Source of the DNA: Planctomycetota bacterium
Lineage (GTDB): Bacteria > Planctomycetota > J058
Reading direction: 5' to 3'
Length of the DNA: 64,000 nt
Assembly (NCBI GenBank): GCA_003695705.1
Contig: RFHU01000012.1
Coordinates: 1-64,000 of the forward strand
The translations under genes were made by a program, and so were the position numbers. This document shows, piece by piece, positions 2,172 to 13,659 of this stretch. Every line of letters starts with the position of its first letter. The stretch's first letter is position 1. The notes beneath the pieces are model-generated. The model saw only the letters and a list, made by a program, of their open reading frames with translations, was not told the origin of the DNA and ran no database searches.

Positions 2172-4175
2172 TTAGGGGGAGCGGGCGACGCGAAAGCCGA
2201 TGAAGGGCGTCCAGGTGTCGGGGGCGGCGAACTCCCGCGCGGTGGTCGTGCAGGCGGAGAGCGGCTGCGCGTACGAACCGCCGCGAACCACCCGCGCGGG
2301 GGCTGGGGCGGGGTCCACGAGCGGCTCGTGCGCGGGCTCCGCCCTGTAGTAGGCACCGCCGTCCTCGACCCACTCGTAGACGTTGCCCGCCATGTCGAGG
2401 CAGCCGAAGGGGGAGGCGCCCGCCGGGTAGCGACCGACCGGCTGCGAACCCAAGGGGCCGTCCCCGCGGACACGGGCCCGGTCGGGAAGGGCGGCGTCTC
2501 CCCAGGGGAAACGCCGCCCGTCTCGACCGCGCGCGGCGTATTCCCACTGCGCCTCGCTCGGCAGGCGCAGCCCGGCCCAGGCGCAGTAGTCGCGCGCGTC
2601 CTTCCAGGACACCAGGACCACCGGGTGCTTCGGCGAGGTCGGGTAGGGAGGATCGAGGGGGGAATCGCGTCCCGCGTCGCGACAGTAGGCTGCGTACTGG
2701 GCGCGGGTGACCTCGTACTTGCCCAGGAAGAAGCCGTCCACCGAAACCCGGTGGGGAGGTGCTTCGAGGCGGCTCCGCCGGCTGCCCATGAGAAAGGTGC
2801 CGCCCGGGATCCACACCAGGACCGAGCCGTCTCGTTCGTTGAGGTACTCCCCCGGACTCGGACCCCAGCGGACGCCGGGCGGGAGGCGCGGGGGCCGCGC
2901 CGCGGGGGGGAGGGCGCGGAACCAGGCCGGCGCGCCCGTCTCTTTGGCCCGAGGAGAGCCGTCGGGGGCCTTCGTCGGCCCGGCGCGCCTCTGGGGCGTT
3001 CCGCGCGCGGGCGAGGGAGCCTCTTCGTCGGCCGAGGGGGAGGGTGCGGGCGGCGTGGGAGTCCGGGCGGCGACGCCGGACGCGGGGGCGGAGCCACCGG
3101 CGACGAGGGCGGCGACGAGGGCGACGAGGCCTGCGCCCCCAAGCAGGGCCAGGGCCGCGGCGGTTCGTCCGGAGCCCCACCGGCGACCCCGGCGACCGGC
3201 GTCCGCCTCGACCGGGAGGCCGCCGGCCAGCCAGGCGTCGAGGGCCGCCGCGAAGGCGTCGCCGTCCGGGTAGCGCTCGGCCGGCTCGCGAGCCAGGGCG
3301 CGCAGGCAAACGGCCTCGAGGCCGGGAGGCACTCGGGGAAGGATCGCGTGCGGTGGTGTCGGCGACTGGGTGCGGACCGCCTCCGCCAACTCGAGGAGGC
3401 TGCTGGCGGGGAAAGGCGGCCGCCCGCAGAGGAGCCGGTAGAGGAGGACCCCGAGGGCCCACACGTCGGTCGCCGGGCTGACCTCGCCTGCGGAGAACTG
3501 CTCGGGTGCCATCGCACGGGGGGTCCCGACCAGGTCCCCCGTGCGGGTGAGGTCGTCGAGGCCGGTTGCGCGCGCGAGGCCGAAGTCCGTCACGCGGACG
3601 CGACCGTCGCCGTCGACCAAGACGTTCTCCGACTTCACGTCGCGATGCACCACCCCGCGCCGATGCGCGTGGCCGAGGGCGCGGGCCGCGTCGCGCAGCC
3701 ACTCGACGCCCCGACCCAGGGAAGCGTGGGCGCAGGCCTCGAGCAGGGGGCGGGCGCCCGGAACGAGCTCGTAGACGAGGAAGGGCACAGCGCCGGCCCA
3801 GCCGAAGTCGTGCACCGCGACGATGGCCGGGTGCCGGAGGGCGGCGGCGACCTGCCCCTCGCGCCGGAAACGCCGCAGCACGGCCTCGTCCGCCCGCGGC
3901 AGGCGGTCGAGGCGCTTCAAGGCCACCTGGCGACCGAGTCGCGGGTCGAAGGCGCGGTGGACGGTCCCGGCTCCGCCCCGTCCGAGGACCTCGAGCAGGA
4001 CGTAGCCCGAGACCCACCGACCGGGCGCCCACCCAGACTCGGGCGTGGGGCACGGCGTCTCCGCCGCCGCGGCACCCTCCCCGCTGGGGATAGCGGAGAG
4101 GCACCACTCCGCCGACGCGGAGCCGTGGGCGTCGTCGAAGGGTTCCGGGCCCTCTGGGTTGCCCGCGTTCGCCAC
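2172..4175 (-). CDS. Ser/Thr protein kinase fused to FGE-sulfatase domain
   Basis: The start is taken as the GTG at 4175, which has AAGGAG nine bases upstream; the longer ORF in the track runs through the divergent promoter into the neighbouring gene. The 667-residue product has a Hanks kinase domain at about 58-310 with a Gly loop (LGRGGAGTV), Lys in VALKRL, catalytic HRDVKSEN and DFG, so it looks active. A single membrane helix follows (LALLGGAGLVALVAALVAG), then a Pro/Ala-rich linker. A C-terminal FGE/SUMF1-like domain covers about 425-665 (WIPGGTFLMGS, LPSEAQWEYAARG, CLDMAGNVYEWVED, RVVRGGSY). The topology puts the kinase in the cytoplasm and the FGE-like domain outside, so that domain may act as a sensor. 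Whether it has formylglycine-generating activity is unknown. Confidence 0.9.
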   Translation of the reverse strand: MANAGNPEGPEPFDDAHGSASAEWCLSAIPSGEGAAAAETPCPTPESGWAPGRWVSGYVLLEVLGRGGAGTVHRAFDPRLGRQVALKRLDRLPRADEAVLRRFRREGQVAAALRHPAIVAVHDFGWAGAVPFLVYELVPGARPLLEACAHASLGRGVEWLRDAARALGHAHRRGVVHRDVKSENVLVDGDGRVRVTDFGLARATGLDDLTRTGDLVGTPRAMAPEQFSAGEVSPATDVWALGVLLYRLLCGRPPFPASSLLELAEAVRTQSPTPPHAILPRVPPGLEAVCLRALAREPAERYPDGDAFAAALDAWLAGGLPVEADAGRRGRRWGSGRTAAALALLGGAGLVALVAALVAGGSAPASGVAARTPTPPAPSPSADEEAPSPARGTPQRRAGPTKAPDGSPRAKETGAPAWFRALPPAARPPRLPPGVRWGPSPGEYLNERDGSVLVWIPGGTFLMGSRRSRLEAPPHRVSVDGFFLGKYEVTRAQYAAYCRDAGRDSPLDPPYPTSPKHPVVLVSWKDARDYCAWAGLRLPSEAQWEYAARGRDGRRFPWGDAALPDRARVRGDGPLGSQPVGRYPAGASPFGCLDMAGNVYEWVEDGGAYYRAEPAHEPLVDPAPAPARVVRGGSYAQPLSACTTTAREFAAPDTWTPFIGFRVARSP

Positions 4176-4359
4176 GCCGTCAGTCTCCTTCCCCCGGGAG
4201 CGACGCACAAGCCGCCGACGGTGGGGAACGACGGAATAAGGGCGGAATCGGCCGCGCGAAGGCGAGCCCCAAGTGCTTGTTCGCGAGCCCCTTGGGCTCG
4301 CTCCCCCGCGGGCACGCGCCTCGCTCCCAAGGCCCTCCGTCCTGCGAGAGGAGCGCGCG

Positions 4360-6600
4360 ATGCATCCGGGCCGGTTCTTCCTTTCCTCTTTCCTCTGGGC
4401 CGTTGCCGTCGCCGCGGTCGCGGCGCCGGGCTGCGGCGGACACGGCCGCTCGTCCGCGCGCGGCTCTGCGTCGGGCGGCAGCACCGCGACGCCGCCCCCC
4501 GGCGGGGGCGCGCCCGCCGGCGCCGTCGCCTTGCGCCTGCGCGACGGCCCCGCGCAGCCCGCCGACCGCCGCGTGCAGGCCCCCGCCGCGGGGGTGGTGG
4601 TCGGGCAGGTACGCGTCGAGGCCAGCGCCTCCTTGACCGTCGAAGCCGTCGCGGCCGCCGCCGACGGGACCATCGATGAATCCACCGGCCTCGGCGACAC
4701 CCGCCTCTACCGCGACGTCGACGGAGACGGCGCCTTGGGCCCCAACGACCTGCCCCTGGGGACGGGACAGGCAGTGTCGCGAGACAACGGGATGGTCACC
4801 TTCCGCGGGCTCGGGCTCCGCGTGGACCCCGCCGCCCCCGTCGACCTCCTCCTCGCCACCGAGGTCCGCGGCGCCGCCCGGGTCGGCGACACGGTGAGCT
4901 TCCGCGTCGAGGGGTGGCGAGCCGAGGCCCGCGACCCCTCGGGCCAGCTCGTGCGCGGGGAGGCGGGCGCCGAGCTGGGCGCGGCGCGGGTCGTGGGAGG
5001 AGACCCGCCGCGCGACCTCTCGGTGTCGCTGGCGCCCACGAGCCCGAGCAGCCCCTTGTCCGTCGCGGCCGACGCGCGCGACGTGCCCGCCGTGGCCTTG
5101 CGCTTCGAGAGCGCCCTCGGCGGCCTGGACCTGCAAGGACTCACCTTTGCCCTGCGCGGCAGCGGCGACGACGCCCGCGACCTGCTCGAGGCACGCCTGG
5201 TGCTCGACGCCAACCGCAACGGGGCCATCGACGCCGGCGAGCGCGTGCTCGCACGCGGAGTGCCCGACGCGGACGACGGCCGCCTGGCCTTCGCCTTCGG
5301 CGGACAGCGCCTCGCTGCCGGTGGAAGCCTGGACCTCGTGGTGGGGCTCCGCTTGGCGGGGACCGCCGCGGCGGGGGCCAAGTTCTCGCTGGCCCTCGAC
5401 GCCGCCGGCGTCACGGCCCACAACCACACCGGCAACGGCGGGGTCTCCGTCCGGCTCGCGGCGACGCCCCTGCGCGGGGCGACCCTCCGCGTGGGAAGAA
5501 CCGCCGACGCACTACTGGCGCGCGCCGCGGGCGACCCGGCGCGCATCGCCGGCGCCGGCGAGCATCTCTCCTTGGCCTTGACCCTCCGCGCGGGGGGCGC
5601 GCCGGCGCAAGTCGACGCGCTCACCGTGCATGCGCGCGGCGACCTCGACGACGCTCGGGAAGTGGGCGGGGTCTCCCTCTACGACGACGCCGACGGCGAC
5701 GGGCGCTTTGTGCCGGGGAGCGACGCGCTCCTGAGCGGCCCCGCGCGCTTCGCGCGCGACGATGGCCAAGTCCACTTCGCCCTCGCCAGCCCCCTCGACG
5801 TGCCCGCGGGTACCGCCCGCACCCTGCTCGTCGTGGTCGAGTTCCCGGCCGGTCTCGCGCCGGGCAAGGGCTTCGCCCTCGTCGTGGACCCGGCCGCCGG
5901 CGACCTCAGCACGAACGCCACGGTTGCGCCCGTTCCCTTGCAGGTGGGCACCTTGCTCGTGACCGGCTCCGGGCGGACGGCCCTCGTGCAGCCCGACCCC
6001 GCCCTGGGCAAGGACGCCTACGTGCGCGGCGAGGGCCTCTACCTCAACGACAACTTCGGCCGGCACGGCCTGGCGGTGGGCGACCGCCCGAGCGGCCAAC
6101 TCGGCGAGCGGCAGAGCTACATCGAGCTCCCGCTCCCCGCCCTGCCGGCCGGAGCGACGCCCGCCCGCGCCTACCTCGCCCTTTACGTCACCGGCACCGG
6201 AGGGCTCACGGGGCCCTTCCTCGACGTGCAGGCGCACCGCGTGATCGACTCGCCCGGGGGGCGGACGCCCTGGATCGAAGGACGCGGCGGCTTCGACGCC
6301 TCGGCGGACGGCATTTGCTACGACGGGACCATCCAGGGGACCGGACGCCCGGAGCTCAGCCGCCCCGACGTGGACCCCACGGCCTTGGACGAAGTGCGCG
6401 TGGCCGCGGGAAGCGAGGGGAACTGGGTCCTCTTCGACGTCACCGCCGCCGTGCGCCGCTGGGCGAACGGCAGCGCGCCCAACTTCGGCCTGCGCCTGCG
6501 CGACAAGGACTTCGCCACCCACGACGACGGCGCGGTCTCCTTTGCCTCGAGCGACGACCCCTGGGCGCGACGGCGGCCCATCCTCATCGTCGAGCACTGA
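4360..6600 (+). CDS. Secreted lipoprotein with C-terminal DNRLRE domain
   Basis: The start is the ATG at 4360, preceded by GAGAGGAG; the longer ORF has no such support. The product is about 746 residues. The N-terminus is hydrophobic and ends in APGCGG, an imperfect lipobox, followed by a Gly/Ser/Pro linker. The middle contains repeated beta domains with EF-hand or dockerin-like acidic loops (DVDGDGALGPNDLPLG and DDADGDGRFVPGSDALL) that may bind calcium. The last 200 residues resemble the DNRLRE domain found in extracellular proteins (YIELPLPALP, VLFDVTAAVRRWANG, FGLRLRDKD). It is likely exposed on the cell surface. It is divergent from the kinase-FGE gene with 184 bases between them. Confidence 0.8.
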   Translation: MHPGRFFLSSFLWAVAVAAVAAPGCGGHGRSSARGSASGGSTATPPPGGGAPAGAVALRLRDGPAQPADRRVQAPAAGVVVGQVRVEASASLTVEAVAAAADGTIDESTGLGDTRLYRDVDGDGALGPNDLPLGTGQAVSRDNGMVTFRGLGLRVDPAAPVDLLLATEVRGAARVGDTVSFRVEGWRAEARDPSGQLVRGEAGAELGAARVVGGDPPRDLSVSLAPTSPSSPLSVAADARDVPAVALRFESALGGLDLQGLTFALRGSGDDARDLLEARLVLDANRNGAIDAGERVLARGVPDADDGRLAFAFGGQRLAAGGSLDLVVGLRLAGTAAAGAKFSLALDAAGVTAHNHTGNGGVSVRLAATPLRGATLRVGRTADALLARAAGDPARIAGAGEHLSLALTLRAGGAPAQVDALTVHARGDLDDAREVGGVSLYDDADGDGRFVPGSDALLSGPARFARDDGQVHFALASPLDVPAGTARTLLVVVEFPAGLAPGKGFALVVDPAAGDLSTNATVAPVPLQVGTLLVTGSGRTALVQPDPALGKDAYVRGEGLYLNDNFGRHGLAVGDRPSGQLGERQSYIELPLPALPAGATPARAYLALYVTGTGGLTGPFLDVQAHRVIDSPGGRTPWIEGRGGFDASADGICYDGTIQGTGRPELSRPDVDPTALDEVRVAAGSEGNWVLFDVTAAVRRWANGSAPNFGLRLRDKDFATHDDGAVSFASSDDPWARRRPILIVEH

Positions 6601-6713
6601 CCGCCGCGGGAGGGACGGCGCGAAGTCGGTCGCGGGTCGCCTTCGTCGAGCCGCCCTCGGGCGCTCTGGACCGCTCCGCAGCGCCCGAGCCTTCCACCAC
6701 GAACCGCTGCTCT

Positions 6714-6754
6714 CGAAGGGCGGAGGTGCGCGCGGTGCGCGCCTCCGCCCTTCG
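6714..6754 (+). terminator. Probable terminator after the DNRLRE lipoprotein gene
   Basis: A perfect 13-base-pair stem, CGAAGGGCGGAGG and CCTCCGCCCTTCG, surrounds a 15-base loop that can itself pair. It is followed by TTTCG. It lies about 110 bases after the lipoprotein stop. The T run is short, so termination may need other factors. Confidence 0.5.
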
Positions 6755-6872
6755 TTTCGCCGTGCGCTCGCCGTTCACGGCGGTTCGCTCCGTGCCCTTC
6801 CCCTGGGTCCCACGCGAACCGCGCACTCCGTGCGTGCGCCCGGCTTGCCCGAGCGGGCGGGCACGACGTGCA

Positions 6873-6902
6873 CAGCGGACCTCTGGATCCGGAGGTCCGC
6901 TG
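6873..6902 (+). other. Perfect 11-bp hairpin upstream of the broken lipoprotein gene
   Basis: CAGCGGACCTC and GAGGTCCGCTG flank an eight-base loop (tggatccg). It sits about 80 bases before the ATG at 6985 and may be a second terminator or a leader structure. Confidence 0.45.
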
Positions 6903-6984
6903 AAACCGACCGAGACGCGAAGCAGCCGGGCGGTTCGACGCGAGCGCGTGGTCCTCCCCTTGCGTTCAGGGCGCCCGACCAAAG

Positions 6985-7407
6985 ATGCCCCAGGATCGTC
7001 CTTCGCGCTCCTCGCCTCGGCTGCTTCGCTGCAGCGCTCGCCCTTGCCGGCTGCGGCAGCGGATCCTCGGGAAGCGGAGGCGGACGGGTCGCCCCCGGCG
7101 GGGGCGGCGACCGCCCCAGCACGTTCCACGGCTCCGTGTTCCCGGTGGTGCGCAACACCGGCGCCAAGGCGGCCTGCCAGGGCGGCGGCGCCGGTGGCTT
7201 CGCCTTCGACGGCTCGAACGAGGACGCGGCCTACCGGGCGACCGTCGCCTACGCGGACCGGAGCGACCCGCCGGCTTCGCTCGTCCTCCGCAAGCCCGCG
7301 GAAGACGGCGTCCGCCACGGCGGCGGCGTGGTCCCCTGCACGAAAAGAACAACGCCAACTACGAGCTGCTCCTGCGCTGGATCCAGGGCGGCCTGACGCA
7401 GCGCTGA
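6985..7407 (+). pseudogene. Frameshifted small lipoprotein resembling planctomycete cytochrome-type (PSCyt1-like) domain
   Basis: No single frame gives a sensible protein, but joining two frames does. From the ATG at 6985, removing one C from the CCCC at 6988-6991 gives MPRIVLRAPRLGCFAAALAL followed by AGCG, a lipoprotein signal. The middle frame then reads FHGSVFPVVRNTGAKAACQG and later SLVLRKPAEDGVRHGGG. At the CCCC at 7333-7336, adding one C restores PLHEKNNANYELLLRWIQGG and the stop at 7407. The pattern SLVLRKP...HGGG...YELLLRWIQGG resembles the haem-domain proteins common in planctomycetes, although no CXXCH is visible. The two frame breaks are opposite in sign and both in C runs, so either assembly error or real decay is possible. 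Confidence 0.6.
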
Positions 7408-7550
7408 GCGGGGGGCAGTTCGCGGCGCCCGGCGCTCGGGCTAGGGCTCCCCGGCTCGGCGGCGACGGGTCGCCCCGAGCCGGGGCGGCCGGCATCCCGA
7501 GCCCGCGCACGGCGCAGCCTCCGCCCTGGAGGCACGCCGCGGGGCCGCGC

Positions 7551-8387
7551 TCAGGAGGCGTCGGTCAGCTCGGCCACGGCTCGCTTCGCCTCTTCGACCT
7601 GGGCGATGAATTCCTGGCGGGTCTTCTCCAGGCGGGCGAGGTGGTCCTGCAGGCGGGCGTGGCTGCGTTCGAGCTGGCGCAGCTCGTCCTCGAGCGACTC
7701 CTTGCGCCCGAGGGCTCGGTCGTGCTGCGCGCGGAGCTCGGCCACGGCGTCGCTCCCCTCCTGGGCGGCGGCATCGAGGCTGCGCCGCTCCTCTTGCAGC
7801 CGATCGCGCTCGCCGCGGAGCTGGGCAACACGCTCGCCCATGGACCGGTTGTAGGCGGCCAGCCTCCGCACCTCCGCCTCGAGCTCGTCCTGCTGCTCGC
7901 CCAGATGACGCCCCTCGGCAGCGAGGCGCTCGGTCTCGCGGGCCAGGGCCTCGTTGCGCTCGATGAGGGCCCGCACCTGGCGCGCCGCTTCCTGGAGCCG
8001 ACCCAGGGCCTCGTCGAGGCCGCGCGTGGCGCCCACCTGCAGCTCGGCGATGCGCGCGTTCTCCTCGCCGAGGACGTCGTCGAGGAGCTGTCGCGAAGCG
8101 GTGAAGCGTTCGGCGAGCTGCGCCGCCGAGGGACCCTGCGGGGGACGCGGACGCGGCGGGACCTTGGCCTCGCCGGCCCGCCCTGCGCCGCCTTGCGAGG
8201 GACGCGCCTGCGGGCCCGAGGGCGGCTTGCTGCGCGGGCGGACCGGTCGACCCTGCGGCGGGTTGCGCACGCGCCCGCCGCCGGAAGGCGGTGAGCCGCG
8301 GCGCCCGCCGTCGCCGCTCGGCGCGGGCGGACGCCGCTTCGGGTCGTCCGAAGACCGGTCGGGCGCTGGTTGGGATGCTTCGGCCAT
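7551..8387 (-). CDS. Coiled-coil protein with basic Pro-rich N-terminus
   Basis: This 278-residue protein has about 105 residues rich in Pro, Arg, Gly and Ser (low complexity, strongly basic) followed by a long predicted coiled coil to the end (QLAERFTASRQLLDDVLGEE, later LRQLERSHARLQDHLARLEK). No signal peptide or membrane segment is seen. The start at 8387 lies 12 bases after the stop of the upstream coiled-coil gene, so the two probably form an operon and may assemble together. No family is recognised. A scaffolding or nucleic-acid-binding role for the basic tail is only a guess. Confidence 0.75.
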   Translation of the reverse strand: MAEASQPAPDRSSDDPKRRPPAPSGDGGRRGSPPSGGGRVRNPPQGRPVRPRSKPPSGPQARPSQGGAGRAGEAKVPPRPRPPQGPSAAQLAERFTASRQLLDDVLGEENARIAELQVGATRGLDEALGRLQEAARQVRALIERNEALARETERLAAEGRHLGEQQDELEAEVRRLAAYNRSMGERVAQLRGERDRLQEERRSLDAAAQEGSDAVAELRAQHDRALGRKESLEDELRQLERSHARLQDHLARLEKTRQEFIAQVEEAKRAVAELTDAS

Positions 8388-8399
8388 CGCGGCCTCCCC

Positions 8400-9575
8400 T
8401 CAGTCGGTGGTTCCTTGCTCGTCGAGCGCGCGGCGGATGGCCCGCGGAAGGATGTCGCGCTCGATGCGCTTGGCGGCGCGGACCACCTCGGCCTCGACGA
8501 GGGTCTTCAGCTCGGGCGAGGCCAGCAGGCCTTCGAGGCCGGCGGCGCCGGCCGCTTCCGCCTCGGCGGAGGCGCCTCCCCGCGCAGCGGTCCGCACGCT
8601 CCGCAGTTCCTCTTCCAAGGCCTCCAGCCGCGCCGCAGCGGCCTCGCGGGCGGCGCGGGCCTCGGCGGCGAGCTCGTCCAGGGCCTGGCGCAGCGCGGCC
8701 CGCTCTCCGGCGGCGCGCTCCTCGAGCTCCGCGAGGGCGCCCTCGAGCGCCTGTCGGGCGGCGGCGAGGTCCTCCCGGGCCGCCCCCGTCGCCCCCTCGA
8801 CCGCGTCCAGGCGCGCCGTCGCCGCCCTCCGCACACCCTCGAGGGCGGCCTCGAATTCCTTGCGGGCGGCCCCGACGTCGCGGGTCGCCGCCGCCGCCAG
8901 GTCTTCGTGGGCCTCGGCGGCCTCCTTGCGCAAGTCGCGTGCGAGCGCCTCCCGCGCCGCGGTCGCGGCTTCGACTTCCCGTGCGAGCTCGCGGGCTCCC
9001 TGTTCGAGGGCGTCGAGGCGCTCGGCGCGTTCGCGGGCTCCCTGTTCGAGGGCGTCGAGGCGCTCGGCGTGCTCTTCGCGCACGGCGGCCGACTCGGCCT
9101 GCAGGCGCTCGCCGAGGACCTCGAGGCGGCCCACCAGGCGGTCTTCCAGGGCCGCGAGGTGTCGGCCGACGCGCTCCTCGAGCGCCGTGCGCGCCTGCGT
9201 CGCCTCCTCGCGTGCGGCGGCCAGGGCTTGCTCGGCCTTGACGAATTCTTGCACGGTCTCGGCGCGGGTCTTCTGCAGCACCTTGTCGAGCTCGGCGCGC
9301 GCCTTGTTCAGGCGCGCCGTCGCCAGCTCGAGCGCGGTCTGGGGGACACCGTGTTCGCGCAGGCCGCGTGCGAGGACGAGGACTTCGTCGGCGAGCTGGG
9401 CGGCCGGGTCGAGCTGGGCGCGCGCGAGGAGGGCTTCGGCCGCGCGCAGGCGCGCCTCGACGCCGGGATGGCTGCCGGCGCGCGCGCAGGCGGCCTGGGC
9501 GGCCGCGCGCGCGCGCGCGAGGCGCTCTTGCACGACGGCGGCGGTCAGACTCGATCCCGCGGCGTCCTCGGCCAT
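8400..9575 (-). CDS. Ala/Glu-rich long coiled-coil protein
   Basis: A 391-residue protein made almost entirely of Ala, Glu, Arg and Leu heptads after a short N-terminal helical region. A 14-residue unit, AERLDALEQGARER, is duplicated near the middle and encoded by a 42-bp near-identical DNA repeat. The C-terminal 45 residues (LLASPELKTLVEAEVVRAAK, then RIERDILPRAIRRAL) are less repetitive and could be a small domain. There is no signal or membrane helix. It is the first gene of a two-gene minus-strand operon with the coiled-coil gene at 7551-8387. Its function is unknown. Confidence 0.75.
   Translation of the reverse strand: MAEDAAGSSLTAAVVQERLARARAAAQAACARAGSHPGVEARLRAAEALLARAQLDPAAQLADEVLVLARGLREHGVPQTALELATARLNKARAELDKVLQKTRAETVQEFVKAEQALAAAREEATQARTALEERVGRHLAALEDRLVGRLEVLGERLQAESAAVREEHAERLDALEQGARERAERLDALEQGARELAREVEAATAAREALARDLRKEAAEAHEDLAAAATRDVGAARKEFEAALEGVRRAATARLDAVEGATGAAREDLAAARQALEGALAELEERAAGERAALRQALDELAAEARAAREAAAARLEALEEELRSVRTAARGGASAEAEAAGAAGLEGLLASPELKTLVEAEVVRAAKRIERDILPRAIRRALDEQGTTD
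8989..9069. repeat. Tandem duplication with 42-bp period inside the coiled-coil gene
   Basis: The 39-base string tcgcgggctccctgttcgag... occurs at 8989-9027 and again at 9031-9069. It encodes the duplicated 14-residue heptad unit. Confidence 0.85.
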
Positions 9576-9869
9576 CGCCCCGTCATAGCAGGCGCGCTGG
9601 GCCGGGGCCAGGAATCTTCACCCCGCGCTGAAGCGCGGACGCCGTGCGCGGTCGGCGAGACCTGCGCTGCGAAAGGGCGGCCGGCGCTCCGCTCGCCCCG
9701 AGCCCGCCGGGCTCGGCCCCGGGCCGCGGCCTCGCGCGCGCCCACGGAGGTCCTCCGCCGGGGCCGGCGCGCAGTCCCTACGCGGTCGGGCCCCGGCGCG
9801 CGCGAGGGAGCAGGGTCGGGTCCGGGTGCGAGTGGGCAAGGGCGACCCGCCGGGCTATGGTCGGCGGGG
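9576..9869. other. Divergent promoter region with two small inverted repeats
   Basis: This 294-base gap separates the minus-strand coiled-coil operon from the plus-strand VCBS gene. It holds CCGCGCT-ga-AGCGCGG at 9623-9638 and CCGAGCCC-gcc-GGGCTCGG at 9698-9716. No clear sigma-70 hexamer pair was found. Confidence 0.4.
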
Positions 9870-11444
9870 ATGCGCGCGATCGAGGTCTGGTTGGCGGCGC
9901 TCGTGGCGGTCGGGACGACCGGCTGCCAGAGCTGGGAGCGCACCCGCAAGGAAGTGGTGCACCCCCTGAACGCCCTCTTGCACCGGGACTACCCCCGCTC
10001 CTTGCGTGGCCCCGCGAACGCGGAGCGCGCGCTCGGGCTGCACGCGCCGGCGCTTCAGCCCCAGGCGCGCGCCGAGCTGACGCGGCTGCTCGCGCCCTTC
10101 GCCGAAGTCCGCCAGAGCCGCTGCCTCATCGTCGAAGCCGCTCCGGGCCCGGGGAAGGGAGCGTGGACGGCCCGCTGCCGGCTGTCCCTCGACGGCGTCG
10201 ACGCGGAGGGAAAGCGCTGGACCGTCCGGCAGGCGCAGGCGCTCACCTGCGCCCCGGGTCCCGACGGCTGGCGCATCGAGGGGCGACGCGTGGAGGACCC
10301 CGAGGTCGTAGGCCCCGGCGGACCGACCTTCCGCGAGGAGGCGGGCCTGCGGGGCGTGGTCTTCGCTCACCGCTCGCGGGGGGTCCCCGACCATCGCGGC
10401 CGGGTGCGGCCCTACCTGCCCGGCTCGGGGCTCACCGCGGTCGACGTGGACGACGACGGCCTCGACGACCTGTTGCTGGTGGGCGGGGGCGAGCTGCGGC
10501 TCTTGCGCAACCTCGGCGGTCGGTTCCGGGACGAGACCGAGGAGCGGGGGCTCGTCGCGCCGGAACGGGGCGAGTGTCGCCTGGGGATCTTCGGCGACAT
10601 CGACGGCGACGGGGACCTCGACCTCTTCCTGGGCGTGGTCGACGCCGAGAACGCCCTCTACCTCGGCACCCCCGAGGGGCGCTTCGAGCGCGTCTCCGCG
10701 CGCGAGCGGGGCCTGGTCGGCAGCGGACAGACCACCTCGGCCTGCTTCGCCGACTTCGACGGCGACGGGGACCTCGACCTCTACGTGGTCAACGGCATGA
10801 ACCTGACCCAGCGCGAGCCGGATCCCATTTACGACGCGCGCAACGGCACGCCGAACCAACTCTTCCGCAACCGGGGCGACGGAACCTTCGAGGAGGTCGG
10901 CGCGGCCGCGGGCGTCGACGACGAGGGCTGGGGTCTGGCCTGCACCACGGCGGACATGGACCGAGACGGAGACGTCGACCTCTTCTTGGCCAACGACTTC
11001 GGCCTCGACAAGCTCTACGCGAACCGGGGCGACGGGACCTTCGAGGAGGTCTCGGAGGAGTGGGGGATCGTCCACAGCAATCCGAGCATGTCGGCCGACT
11101 TCGGCGACCTCGACGGCGATGGCCTCCTCGACTTGTTCGTGGCCGGCATGGCGAGCAACTCCCGCTGGATCGTGCGCATGCCGGGCTTCCCGGCGCGGGG
11201 TCCCTTCCCGCTCAACGTGCTGATCCGCGGGCTGATCTTGGAGAGCATGTGGGGAATGCTCCACGGGAACCGCGTCTACCGAGGCCTCCCCGGCGGCGGC
11301 TTCGAGGAGGTGAGCGAAGCCTGGGGCCTGCGCGACCAGGAGTGGGGTTGGGCGACGCCGCTCTTCGACTACGACAACGACGGCGACCTCGACGCCTACG
11401 GAGTCAACGGCTTCTGGTCGGGCGACGAGCCCGACGACTTGTGA
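9870..11444 (+). CDS. CRTAC1-type VCBS/FG-GAP lipoprotein, part before the in-frame TGA
   Basis: The start is the ATG at 9870 with GGCGGGG just upstream; the longer ORF overlaps the divergent operon. It encodes 524 residues. The N-terminus (VWLAALVAVGTTGCQSW) is a probable lipoprotein signal with a weak lipobox. Next comes a region of about 150 residues, then repeated VCBS/FG-GAP calcium-binding blades with acidic loops (DVDDDGLDDLLLV, DIDGDGDLDLFLG, DFDGDGDLDLYVV, DMDRDGDVDLFLA, DLDGDGLLDLFVA, DYDNDGDLDAYGV). This forms a beta-propeller, probably outside the cell. The ORF ends at TGA 11442-11444, but the next ORF continues in the same frame with the domains normally found at the C-terminus of this family. 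The gene is therefore interrupted or recoded, not complete. Confidence 0.85.
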   Translation: MRAIEVWLAALVAVGTTGCQSWERTRKEVVHPLNALLHRDYPRSLRGPANAERALGLHAPALQPQARAELTRLLAPFAEVRQSRCLIVEAAPGPGKGAWTARCRLSLDGVDAEGKRWTVRQAQALTCAPGPDGWRIEGRRVEDPEVVGPGGPTFREEAGLRGVVFAHRSRGVPDHRGRVRPYLPGSGLTAVDVDDDGLDDLLLVGGGELRLLRNLGGRFRDETEERGLVAPERGECRLGIFGDIDGDGDLDLFLGVVDAENALYLGTPEGRFERVSARERGLVGSGQTTSACFADFDGDGDLDLYVVNGMNLTQREPDPIYDARNGTPNQLFRNRGDGTFEEVGAAAGVDDEGWGLACTTADMDRDGDVDLFLANDFGLDKLYANRGDGTFEEVSEEWGIVHSNPSMSADFGDLDGDGLLDLFVAGMASNSRWIVRMPGFPARGPFPLNVLIRGLILESMWGMLHGNRVYRGLPGGGFEEVSEAWGLRDQEWGWATPLFDYDNDGDLDAYGVNGFWSGDEPDDL

Positions 11445-11476
11445 ATGGTCTTCCTCGAGAACGTCGGTCGACGTTC
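11442..11476 (+). promoter_or_regulatory. In-frame TGA followed by SECIS-like hairpin
   Basis: After the TGA at 11442-11444 a perfect stem GAACGTC/GACGTTC (11459-11465 and 11470-11476) closes on the four-base loop GGTC. There are 21 bases between the TGA and the loop GGTC. Bacterial SECIS elements are known as hairpins a short distance after UGA with conserved G in the apical loop, GGUC in E. coli fdhF. The resemblance is seen directly; function in Sec insertion is inference. A chance hairpin in GC-rich DNA after a nonsense mutation is the main alternative. Confidence 0.4.
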
Positions 11477-12047
11477 GCGCGTGGATGCCGGCGAGTTCAG
11501 TTTCTGGGTCGAGCTCGGGGACAAGTCCCTCAACGGCAACGAGGCCAACCGGCTGTTCCGCAACGAGGGCGACGGCCGCTTCCGGGACGTGGCCTGGGTC
11601 GCGGGCGCCGCCCGCCGCGAGGATGCGCGGAGCGTCGTCGCGACGGACGTCGACGCCGACGGCGACCTCGACTTGGTGGTCCAGAATTTCGAGGACGAAG
11701 TCCGACTGCTGGTCAACGAAGGACCGTGCGGACACTTCCTCTCCGTCCGTCTGCGAGGGACCGCGAGCGGCCGCCAGGCCATCGGCGCCCGCGTCGAACT
11801 CACCGCCGGCGGGCGCACCCAGACCCGCGAGGTGCGCACCACGGCCGGCTACCTCTCCGGCGTCTCCTTGGCGTGCCACTTCGGGCTGGGCGCGGCGACC
11901 CGCGTCGAGCGCCTCGTGGTCCATTGGCCTTCGGGAGCGCGCACGGTCCTCGAGGATCTCCCCGCCGACCGCCACCTCGTGGTGACCGAGGACGGCGAGG
12001 TCCTCCCGGGGCCCGACGTCTCCAGCGCGCGCCCCGGGCAAGGGTAG
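11445..12047 (+). CDS. C-terminal part of the CRTAC1 protein: last VCBS repeat and ASPIC/UnbV domain
   Basis: This 200-codon ORF is in the same frame as the preceding ORF and begins with the ATG directly after its TGA. It contains the motif NEANRLFRNEGDGRFRDVAW, a VCBS loop (DVDADGDLDLVVQNF) and an ASPIC/UnbV domain (RQAIGARVELTAGG, TTAGYLSGVSLACHFGLG, VHWPSGARTVLEDL). In CRTAC1-family proteins these segments follow the propeller in one chain. There is no signal peptide or clear ribosome-binding site of its own. It most likely belongs to the same protein, either through selenocysteine or readthrough at the TGA, or as the separated tail of a gene with a nonsense mutation. The downstream purH gene is convergent. 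Confidence 0.75.
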   Translation: MVFLENVGRRSRVDAGEFSFWVELGDKSLNGNEANRLFRNEGDGRFRDVAWVAGAARREDARSVVATDVDADGDLDLVVQNFEDEVRLLVNEGPCGHFLSVRLRGTASGRQAIGARVELTAGGRTQTREVRTTAGYLSGVSLACHFGLGAATRVERLVVHWPSGARTVLEDLPADRHLVVTEDGEVLPGPDVSSARPGQG

Positions 12048-12102: not shown

Positions 12103-13659
12103 TCAGTGCCGGAAGTGGCGGGTTCCGGTGAAGACCATGGCCAGGTCGAGGGCGTCGGCGCGTTCGATGACCTCGGCGTCGCGACGGCTCCCGCCGGGCT
12201 GCACGATGGCGCGCACACCGGCCTCCGCCGCCGCCTCGACGCCGTCGGCGAAGGGGAAGAAAGCGTCGGAAGCGAGGGCGGCGCCGCGGGCCCGGGCTCC
12301 GGCCTTGCGCGCGGCGATGCCCACGGCGTCGACGCGCGACGGTTGGCCGCCCCCGACACCGTAGAGGGCTGCGGGGCCGGCGATGACGATGGCGTTGCTC
12401 CGCACGTGGCGAACGCAGGTCCAGGCGAAGCGGAGGGCCTCCTCTTCCTCGGGGATGGGGGCGCGTCGGGTCACGACCTCCCAGCGAGCGGCCTCGGCGC
12501 GGTCGGCGTCTTGGACGAGCAGGCCGCCGGCCACGCTGCGCAGGCGCAGCCCCGGCTCGGCGGGGAGGCTCGCCTCGACGAGGCGCACCGACTTCCCCCA
12601 GCCCTTGCGTGCACGCAGGCACGCAACGGCCTCGTCGCGGAAGGACGGCGCGACGATGGCTTCGATGAAGCCTTTCGCGCAGAGGGCCTCGGCCAAGGCG
12701 AGGTCGACTTCGACGTTCACGCCGAGGACGGAACCGAAGGCCGAGAGCGGGTCGCCGGCCCAGGCGGCCTCGAGGGCCTCGGTCGCGGTCTCGCCGCGAG
12801 CGGCGCCGCAGGGCCCGGCGTGCTTCACGACGCACACGCCGGGGCGGGGAAGGTCTGCCGAGAGCGCGAGGGCAGCGTCCAAGTCGAGCAGGTTGTTGTA
12901 GCTGAGCTCCTTGCCGCCCTCGCGGCGTCGCAGGGCGCCAAGGCCGGCGGCGGGAGCGAAGGCGTAGAGGGCGCCGCGCTGGTGCGGGTTCTCGCCGTAG
13001 CGCAGCGGGGCGCCCGCGCGCACGGCGGAGACGACGAGGCGGGCGGGCAGGTCGGCGGACGGAGCGTCCTCTGCGAAGCGCGCGGCGAGGGCCGCCGCGA
13101 TGCTCTGGTCGTAGGCGGCGGTGCGGGCGAAGCCGGCCAGGGCCAAGGAGCGGCGGGTGGCCAGGGAGACGCCGCCGTGCGCGCGGAACTCCTCCAGGAA
13201 GGAGGCGTAGTGGGACGGATCGGAGAGGAGCGCGACCCGCGCGAAGTTCTTCGCGCTCGCGCGAAGCATGGCCGGACCGCCGATGTCGATCTCCTCGACC
13301 AGCTCGTCGAGGGGGCGGCCGGCGGCGACTGCCTCCTCGAAGCGATAGAGGTTGACGACGACGAGTTCGAAGGGCTCGATCCCGCAACGCTCCAGGTCGG
13401 GAGCGTCTTGGGGAAGCCGGGCGAGCAGCCCGCCGTGGATCTTCGGGTGCAGGCTCTTGACCCGTCCTCCGAGGATCTCGGGATGCTCGGTGACTTCGGA
13501 CACCTCGCGCACGTCGAGCCCGGCGGCGCGCAGGACACGGGCCGTCCCGCCGGTCGAGACGAGCTCCACGCCTCGCTCGGCGAGGGCTGCGGCGAGGTCT
13601 TCGAGTCCGCTCTTGTCGGCCACGCTGAGGAGGGCGCGGCGAATGGGGACGATGGACAT
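12103..13659 (-). CDS. purH: Bifunctional AICAR transformylase / IMP cyclohydrolase
   Basis: This 518-residue protein catalyses the last two steps of purine synthesis: formylation of AICAR using 10-formyl-tetrahydrofolate, then ring closure to IMP. The N-terminal MGS-like cyclohydrolase domain has RRALLSVADKSGLEDLA, STGGTARVL and VKSLHPKIHGGLLAR. The C-terminal AICARFT domain has the catalytic Lys-His in VVKHAGPCGAA, although the usual Asn of KHANPCG is Gly here. RYGENPHQ, NVEVDLALAE and the terminal GTRHFRH are typical. Length is normal for the family. It acts in the cytoplasm. The acyltransferase gene lies 23 bases upstream on the same strand, so the two may be co-transcribed. Confidence 0.97.
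   Translation of the reverse strand: MSIVPIRRALLSVADKSGLEDLAAALAERGVELVSTGGTARVLRAAGLDVREVSEVTEHPEILGGRVKSLHPKIHGGLLARLPQDAPDLERCGIEPFELVVVNLYRFEEAVAAGRPLDELVEEIDIGGPAMLRASAKNFARVALLSDPSHYASFLEEFRAHGGVSLATRRSLALAGFARTAAYDQSIAAALAARFAEDAPSADLPARLVVSAVRAGAPLRYGENPHQRGALYAFAPAAGLGALRRREGGKELSYNNLLDLDAALALSADLPRPGVCVVKHAGPCGAARGETATEALEAAWAGDPLSAFGSVLGVNVEVDLALAEALCAKGFIEAIVAPSFRDEAVACLRARKGWGKSVRLVEASLPAEPGLRLRSVAGGLLVQDADRAEAARWEVVTRRAPIPEEEEALRFAWTCVRHVRSNAIVIAGPAALYGVGGGQPSRVDAVGIAARKAGARARGAALASDAFFPFADGVEAAAEAGVRAIVQPGGSRRDAEVIERADALDLAMVFTGTRHFRH

Follow-up and report, generated by a model that had tools for sequence, protein, structure and literature searches.

A family of CRTAC1-type propeller proteins in Planctomycetota and Acidobacteriota with an in-frame UGA very probably read as selenocysteine

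Selenocysteine (Sec) generally serves in redox sites, and in most known selenoproteins it lies within the thioredoxin fold itself. Bacterial selenoproteins with GGUC-type SECIS elements, among them E. coli FdhF and SelD, have an in-frame UGA and, just downstream of it, a hairpin with a GGUC loop; in fdhF the loop lies 18 nt after the UGA and the stem contains a bulged U. The biochemical role of the CRTAC1 family is, to our knowledge, unsettled in animals too. Here we analysed a 64-kb stretch of DNA from a Planctomycetota bacterium (‘the window’), one gene of which has the UGA, the hairpin just downstream and the GGUC loop in common with FdhF and SelD, although its protein has an unrelated fold, its UGA-to-GGUC spacing is 21 nt and its stem has no bulge. 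The product shares its domain order and fold with CRTAC1 and other FG-GAP-ASPIC/UnbV proteins (PDB 9etn; PF13517, PF07593), at 18% identity to 9etn, but ordinary CRTAC1 relatives have neither the D-x-U site nor the SECIS element present here. In contrast to thioredoxin-fold selenoproteins, the Sec of this family would be located in the propeller; TlpA/AhpC-like thioredoxin domains with TPR repeats occur as C-terminal fusions in many of its Sec relatives and are absent from the window protein.

The gene, with all of its parts described below, occupies positions 9870-12047 of the plus strand. Its reading frame runs from an ATG at 9870 through an in-frame TGA at 11442-11444 to a TAG at 12045-12047 and is open save for that TGA, with 725 codons and a predicted lipoprotein product of 725 amino acids with Sec at position 525. 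As read from the sequence, a putative signal peptide with a lipobox (...VGTTGC, Cys19) is encoded at 9870-9926, and from this lipobox the protein is predicted to be exported. FG-GAP/VCBS propeller repeats precede the TGA at 10437-11429 (boundaries approximate; five stretches, Pfam FG-GAP_3, E 2.4e-42), and a last repeat (11535-11681; FG-GAP_3, E 2.1e-9) and an ASPIC/UnbV domain (11778-11978; PF07593, UnbV_ASPIC, E 1.3e-22) follow it; both the repeats and the C-terminal domain score above the Pfam cut-off. The domains on the 5′ and 3′ sides of the TGA are in one frame, which bears out the claim of an earlier note on this DNA that the TGA splits a CRTAC1-type protein whose two parts stay in frame. 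That note had also taken TGA to be a normal stop here and a changed genetic code to be excluded, and this holds too, the neighbouring purH (12103-13659) being one gene that terminates in TGA.

The best homologs of the window protein have the same TGA, read through, and align over nearly the full length at up to 53% identity. Homologs at E up to 1e-30 were found in 39 of 98 related genomes, most of them with exactly one in-frame TGA. By profile search at the cut-offs used, a member was found in 105 of the 392 Planctomycetota genomes sampled and in 60 of 297 from Acidobacteriota (the phylum of locus L045), near-complete single-contig assemblies included; most members have one in-frame TGA, and copies per genome reach four or more. 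Near-complete genomes with a UGA member include G462 (a 5.985-Mb contig), G559 and G587. The aligned TGA matches Sec525 of the window protein within the motif NGF-x-(S/T)G-xxxx-D-x-U, and the Asp at -2 is invariant (169/169 UGA genes). In this column, 222 distinct homologous genes from the two phyla have UGA in 169 cases, Cys in 11, Ala in nine, Asn in seven, Glu in six, Gly in four, Ser, Asp and Arg in three each, Gln in two, Met, Leu and Pro in one each and a gap in two; Trp occurs in none of the 222. The earlier note had proposed asking which of Cys, Sec and Trp homologs have at this position, and the answer is mostly Sec-UGA, with Cys in one clade. The 11 Cys genes form a single clade with support of 100, and a quick tree places the other losses of Sec in about seven separate groups. 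Since paralogs with Ala, Asn, Glu, Gly, Ser, Arg or Asp, and not Cys, at the Sec site occur, such lineages can do without the residue; relatives with Glu, Ala, Asn, Arg, Gly, Ser or Gln in its place (L168, L179, L171, L206 and L255-L265, among others) are possibly non-catalytic versions. The window genome itself has three Sec genes on three contigs, the two further paralogs, L058 (contig C481) and L062 (contig C268), having their TGA in the same column as the window gene.

The TGA is followed by a hairpin at 11459-11476, with a 7-bp stem (11459-11465 paired with 11470-11476) and an apical GGUC loop (11466-11469). The TGA is separated from the stem by 14 bases and from the loop by 21; these distances, and the perfect pairing, are as the earlier note had described them. 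No other perfect 7-bp GGTC hairpin occurs on the plus strand of the 64 kb, where 0.125 such hairpins are expected under a first-order Markov model; the folding energy of this one varies with the stretch chosen, from -14.6 to -18.6 kcal/mol. It agrees with all four published constraints on bacterial SECIS (bSECIS) elements, for which the published range of spacing is 16-37 nt (PMC13188914), and this agreement, together with the compensatory covariation described below, upholds the view that geometry and loop are of the bacterial SECIS type. Folding energy by itself was dropped as an argument, a 55-nt piece giving z = -0.8, which is unexceptional for GC-rich DNA; the case therefore rests on position, loop, covariation and a synonymous-recoding test.

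In the clade of the window gene (13 sequences), 96.7% of cells in the 7-bp stem are paired, the GGUC loop is invariant and six of the seven stem pairs show compensatory changes on both sides; covariation was 0.623 compared to 0.272 in shuffled alignments, none of 500 shuffles reaching the observed value. One further clade member, L015, was left out of this alignment because of a one-codon insertion and retains the hairpin once the shift is allowed for. In another and larger clade, marked by the motif WRxVV and counted in 33 representatives, the stem is of 6 bp and the loop reads xGUxx; pairing there is 91.4%, and covariation is 0.422 compared to 0.155 when shuffled (0/500). Because the region is protein-coding, each gene was recoded synonymously as a control for folding: 48 UGA windows gave a mean z of -1.10, compared to -0.18 for the 336 windows used as controls (p 2.6e-8), whereas the Cys homologs, at z +0.54, were not more stable than their recodings. 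Overall, 128 of 138 UGA genes had a hairpin with 5 bp or more and a GU in its loop, and no shared consistent stem was found in the seven UGA sequences that belong to neither the WRxVV nor the window type.

The genome of the window (G000; 6.6 Mb in 564 contigs, ~88% complete) encodes SelA (E 2.3e-138), SelD (E 2.3e-104), a SelB wing match (E 6.5e-18) and a tRNA-Sec (selC) with anticodon tca (UCA), and a search for the four sel genes, as suggested previously, thus recovers all of them. SelD (L217, contig C204) itself contains Sec, its TGA falling in the active site (...ACGGUASK...) and being followed by the hairpin GCCCCCA-GGUCC-UGGGGGC, so this organism uses GGUC-type SECIS elements beyond the window gene. 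Across genomes, selA was found in 24 of 27 Planctomycetota with UGA members compared to 44 of 71 others (p 0.007), and in 26 of 29 Acidobacteriota with UGA members compared to 11 of 20 whose members, at the cut-off used, are all non-UGA (p 0.008), both comparisons being uncorrected for relatedness. No selA match was found in 3/27 and 3/29 of these UGA-member genomes, respectively, probably on account of incomplete assemblies. SelB was detected in all seven tested genomes with Sec genes and in none of four tested genomes without selA (eleven genomes in all); genes from three of these four have Ser, Gln, Ala or Gly at the site, and the genes of the fourth (G566) have scores equal to those of G497. 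In Acidobacteriota a family gene lies near selA on one contig in G404 and within ~5 kb of it in G434, two cases only, which we did not count as evidence.

Considered together, the conserved UGA, the family-level exchange of Sec and Cys, the covarying SECIS, the complete machinery and the co-occurrence with selA and selB indicate that the UGA at 11442-11444 is very probably read as Sec, as the earlier note had proposed. SelB with Sec-tRNA(Sec) would bind the GGUC-loop hairpin 21 nt downstream of the UGA, and Sec would be inserted there instead of termination; the product would be an exported lipoprotein with a CRTAC1-like FG-GAP/VCBS propeller and a C-terminal ASPIC/UnbV domain, with a single Sec, in an invariant D-x-U site, placed between two of the propeller repeats.

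The earlier note regarded a nonsense mutation or a sequencing error as the simpler alternative, which cannot account for 169 genes with an identical TGA. A TGA that truncates a dead copy, at a codon once read as Trp, Cys or Arg, would look just the same in one gene by itself, and paralogs with sense codons at the site do occur; however, the TGA stands in one column of distinct genes from two phyla, the frame is intact on either side with normally one TGA per gene, the hairpin covaries and no homolog has Trp there, which makes a pseudogene extremely improbable. An error in sequencing or assembly might be suspected in a metagenome-assembled genome that is 88% complete and in 564 contigs, but we give it hardly any credence, since the TGA recurs in independent genomes, near-complete single-contig assemblies among them, and in three genes on three contigs of the genome itself. 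The open frame, and nothing more, would also fit a genome-wide reassignment of UGA to Trp or Gly, or readthrough that does not involve Sec; this is scarcely credible where TGA is an ordinary stop in neighbours such as purH and terminates many family members themselves, where Trp never occupies the Sec column and where the genome encodes SelB and a tRNA specific for Sec.

The fold and the domain fusions of relatives bear on what the residue might do. An AlphaFold model of the window protein (pLDDT 81, pTM 0.85) has as its best Foldseek match murine CRTAC1 (PDB 9etn; E 5.3e-28, TM-score 0.72 by target), consistent with a CRTAC1-like propeller fold; the run used ten sequences and the Sec loop is of low confidence in it (pLDDT <50), so we claim no active-site geometry. 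The window protein has no thioredoxin domain, its chain ending 200 amino acids after Sec, whereas in many relatives the chain runs past ASPIC/UnbV into AhpC-TSA/Redoxin domains (frequently with a WASWCxPC motif) and TPR repeats. The site reads UxC in eight members and CU in four; the UxC of one subclade (DGU[TASN]C[LV]W; L070, L025, L066, L036, L071, L080, L079 and L289) is a possible selenenylsulfide pair. The family alignment has no second conserved Cys; other invariant residues include acidic ones (the Asp at -2, a Glu and a DxR), and Ca-type DxDxDG repeats are present. In L230 (G203; 2752-10099) a Sec propeller, a TlpA-like thioredoxin and TPR repeats are joined in one protein, and the gene directly after it encodes a membrane protein that has TPR repeats and Cys motifs of the ferredoxin type, the two forming a possible electron-transfer operon.

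Given the lipobox, the thioredoxin-like fusions in relatives and the UxC and CU motifs, an exported redox role is best supported, and on balance we favour, from sequence, a redox-active Sec partnered by a thioredoxin-like protein in an exported product. Its main rival holds that Sec is real but has a structural role in the propeller, or is a metal ligand there, and is neither redox-active nor catalytic. This is the reading to which the lack of a second conserved Cys, the invariant acidic residues with the Ca-type repeats and the tolerance of Ala, Asn, Glu, Ser or Gly at the site in paralogs would point, but we consider it rather unlikely in view of the thioredoxin-like domains fused in many members, the 12 members with UxC or CU and the fact that Sec is generally employed in redox sites. 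The wider proposal that Planctomycetota and Acidobacteriota have a class of exported Sec-propeller oxidoreductases, whose Sec exchanges electrons with a TlpA-like thioredoxin on the same chain or on another, appears to us evenly balanced. If true, these would be a type of selenoenzyme outside the thioredoxin-fold majority, with multiple copies in many genomes.

Selenoproteins as a kind are well known; as far as the sources consulted show, the Sec-containing CRTAC1-type propeller family is new, and the earlier note had remarked that such a family would be unfamiliar to its author. No FG-GAP/VCBS/CRTAC1/UnbV family is among the 119 prokaryotic selenoprotein families of the May 2026 inventory (PMC13188914 Table 1), which includes those of Haft and Tolstoy 2025, and the new families of deep-Sep differ from this one. 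The window protein matches no model of NCBIfam release 20.0, and 28 relatives gave no more than a weak match to XAC2610_fam, in 6 of them. Selenocysteine was not found paired with UnbV in the open-access literature searched; the two papers pairing selenoprotein with FG-GAP were unrelated, and a supplementary table of PMC4807772 (Porphyra planctomycetes) might include a member.

The family is large and widespread, with more than 100 related genes in two phyla having the TGA at the same place. Standard gene calling would break such genes in two where Sec is encoded, and for this reason selenium use in Planctomycetota and Acidobacteriota, both major environmental phyla, is probably underestimated. 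The location of Sec in a CRTAC1-type beta-propeller also provides a concrete residue for functional study. Matches to CRTAC1-like proteins in plasmid records were partial only, with no more than 55% of the query covered. Among the genes adjoining 14 relatives, none was conserved except tandem or divergent copies of the family itself; at L041 and L219, in two genomes, two Sec-propeller genes are adjacent and arranged head to head.
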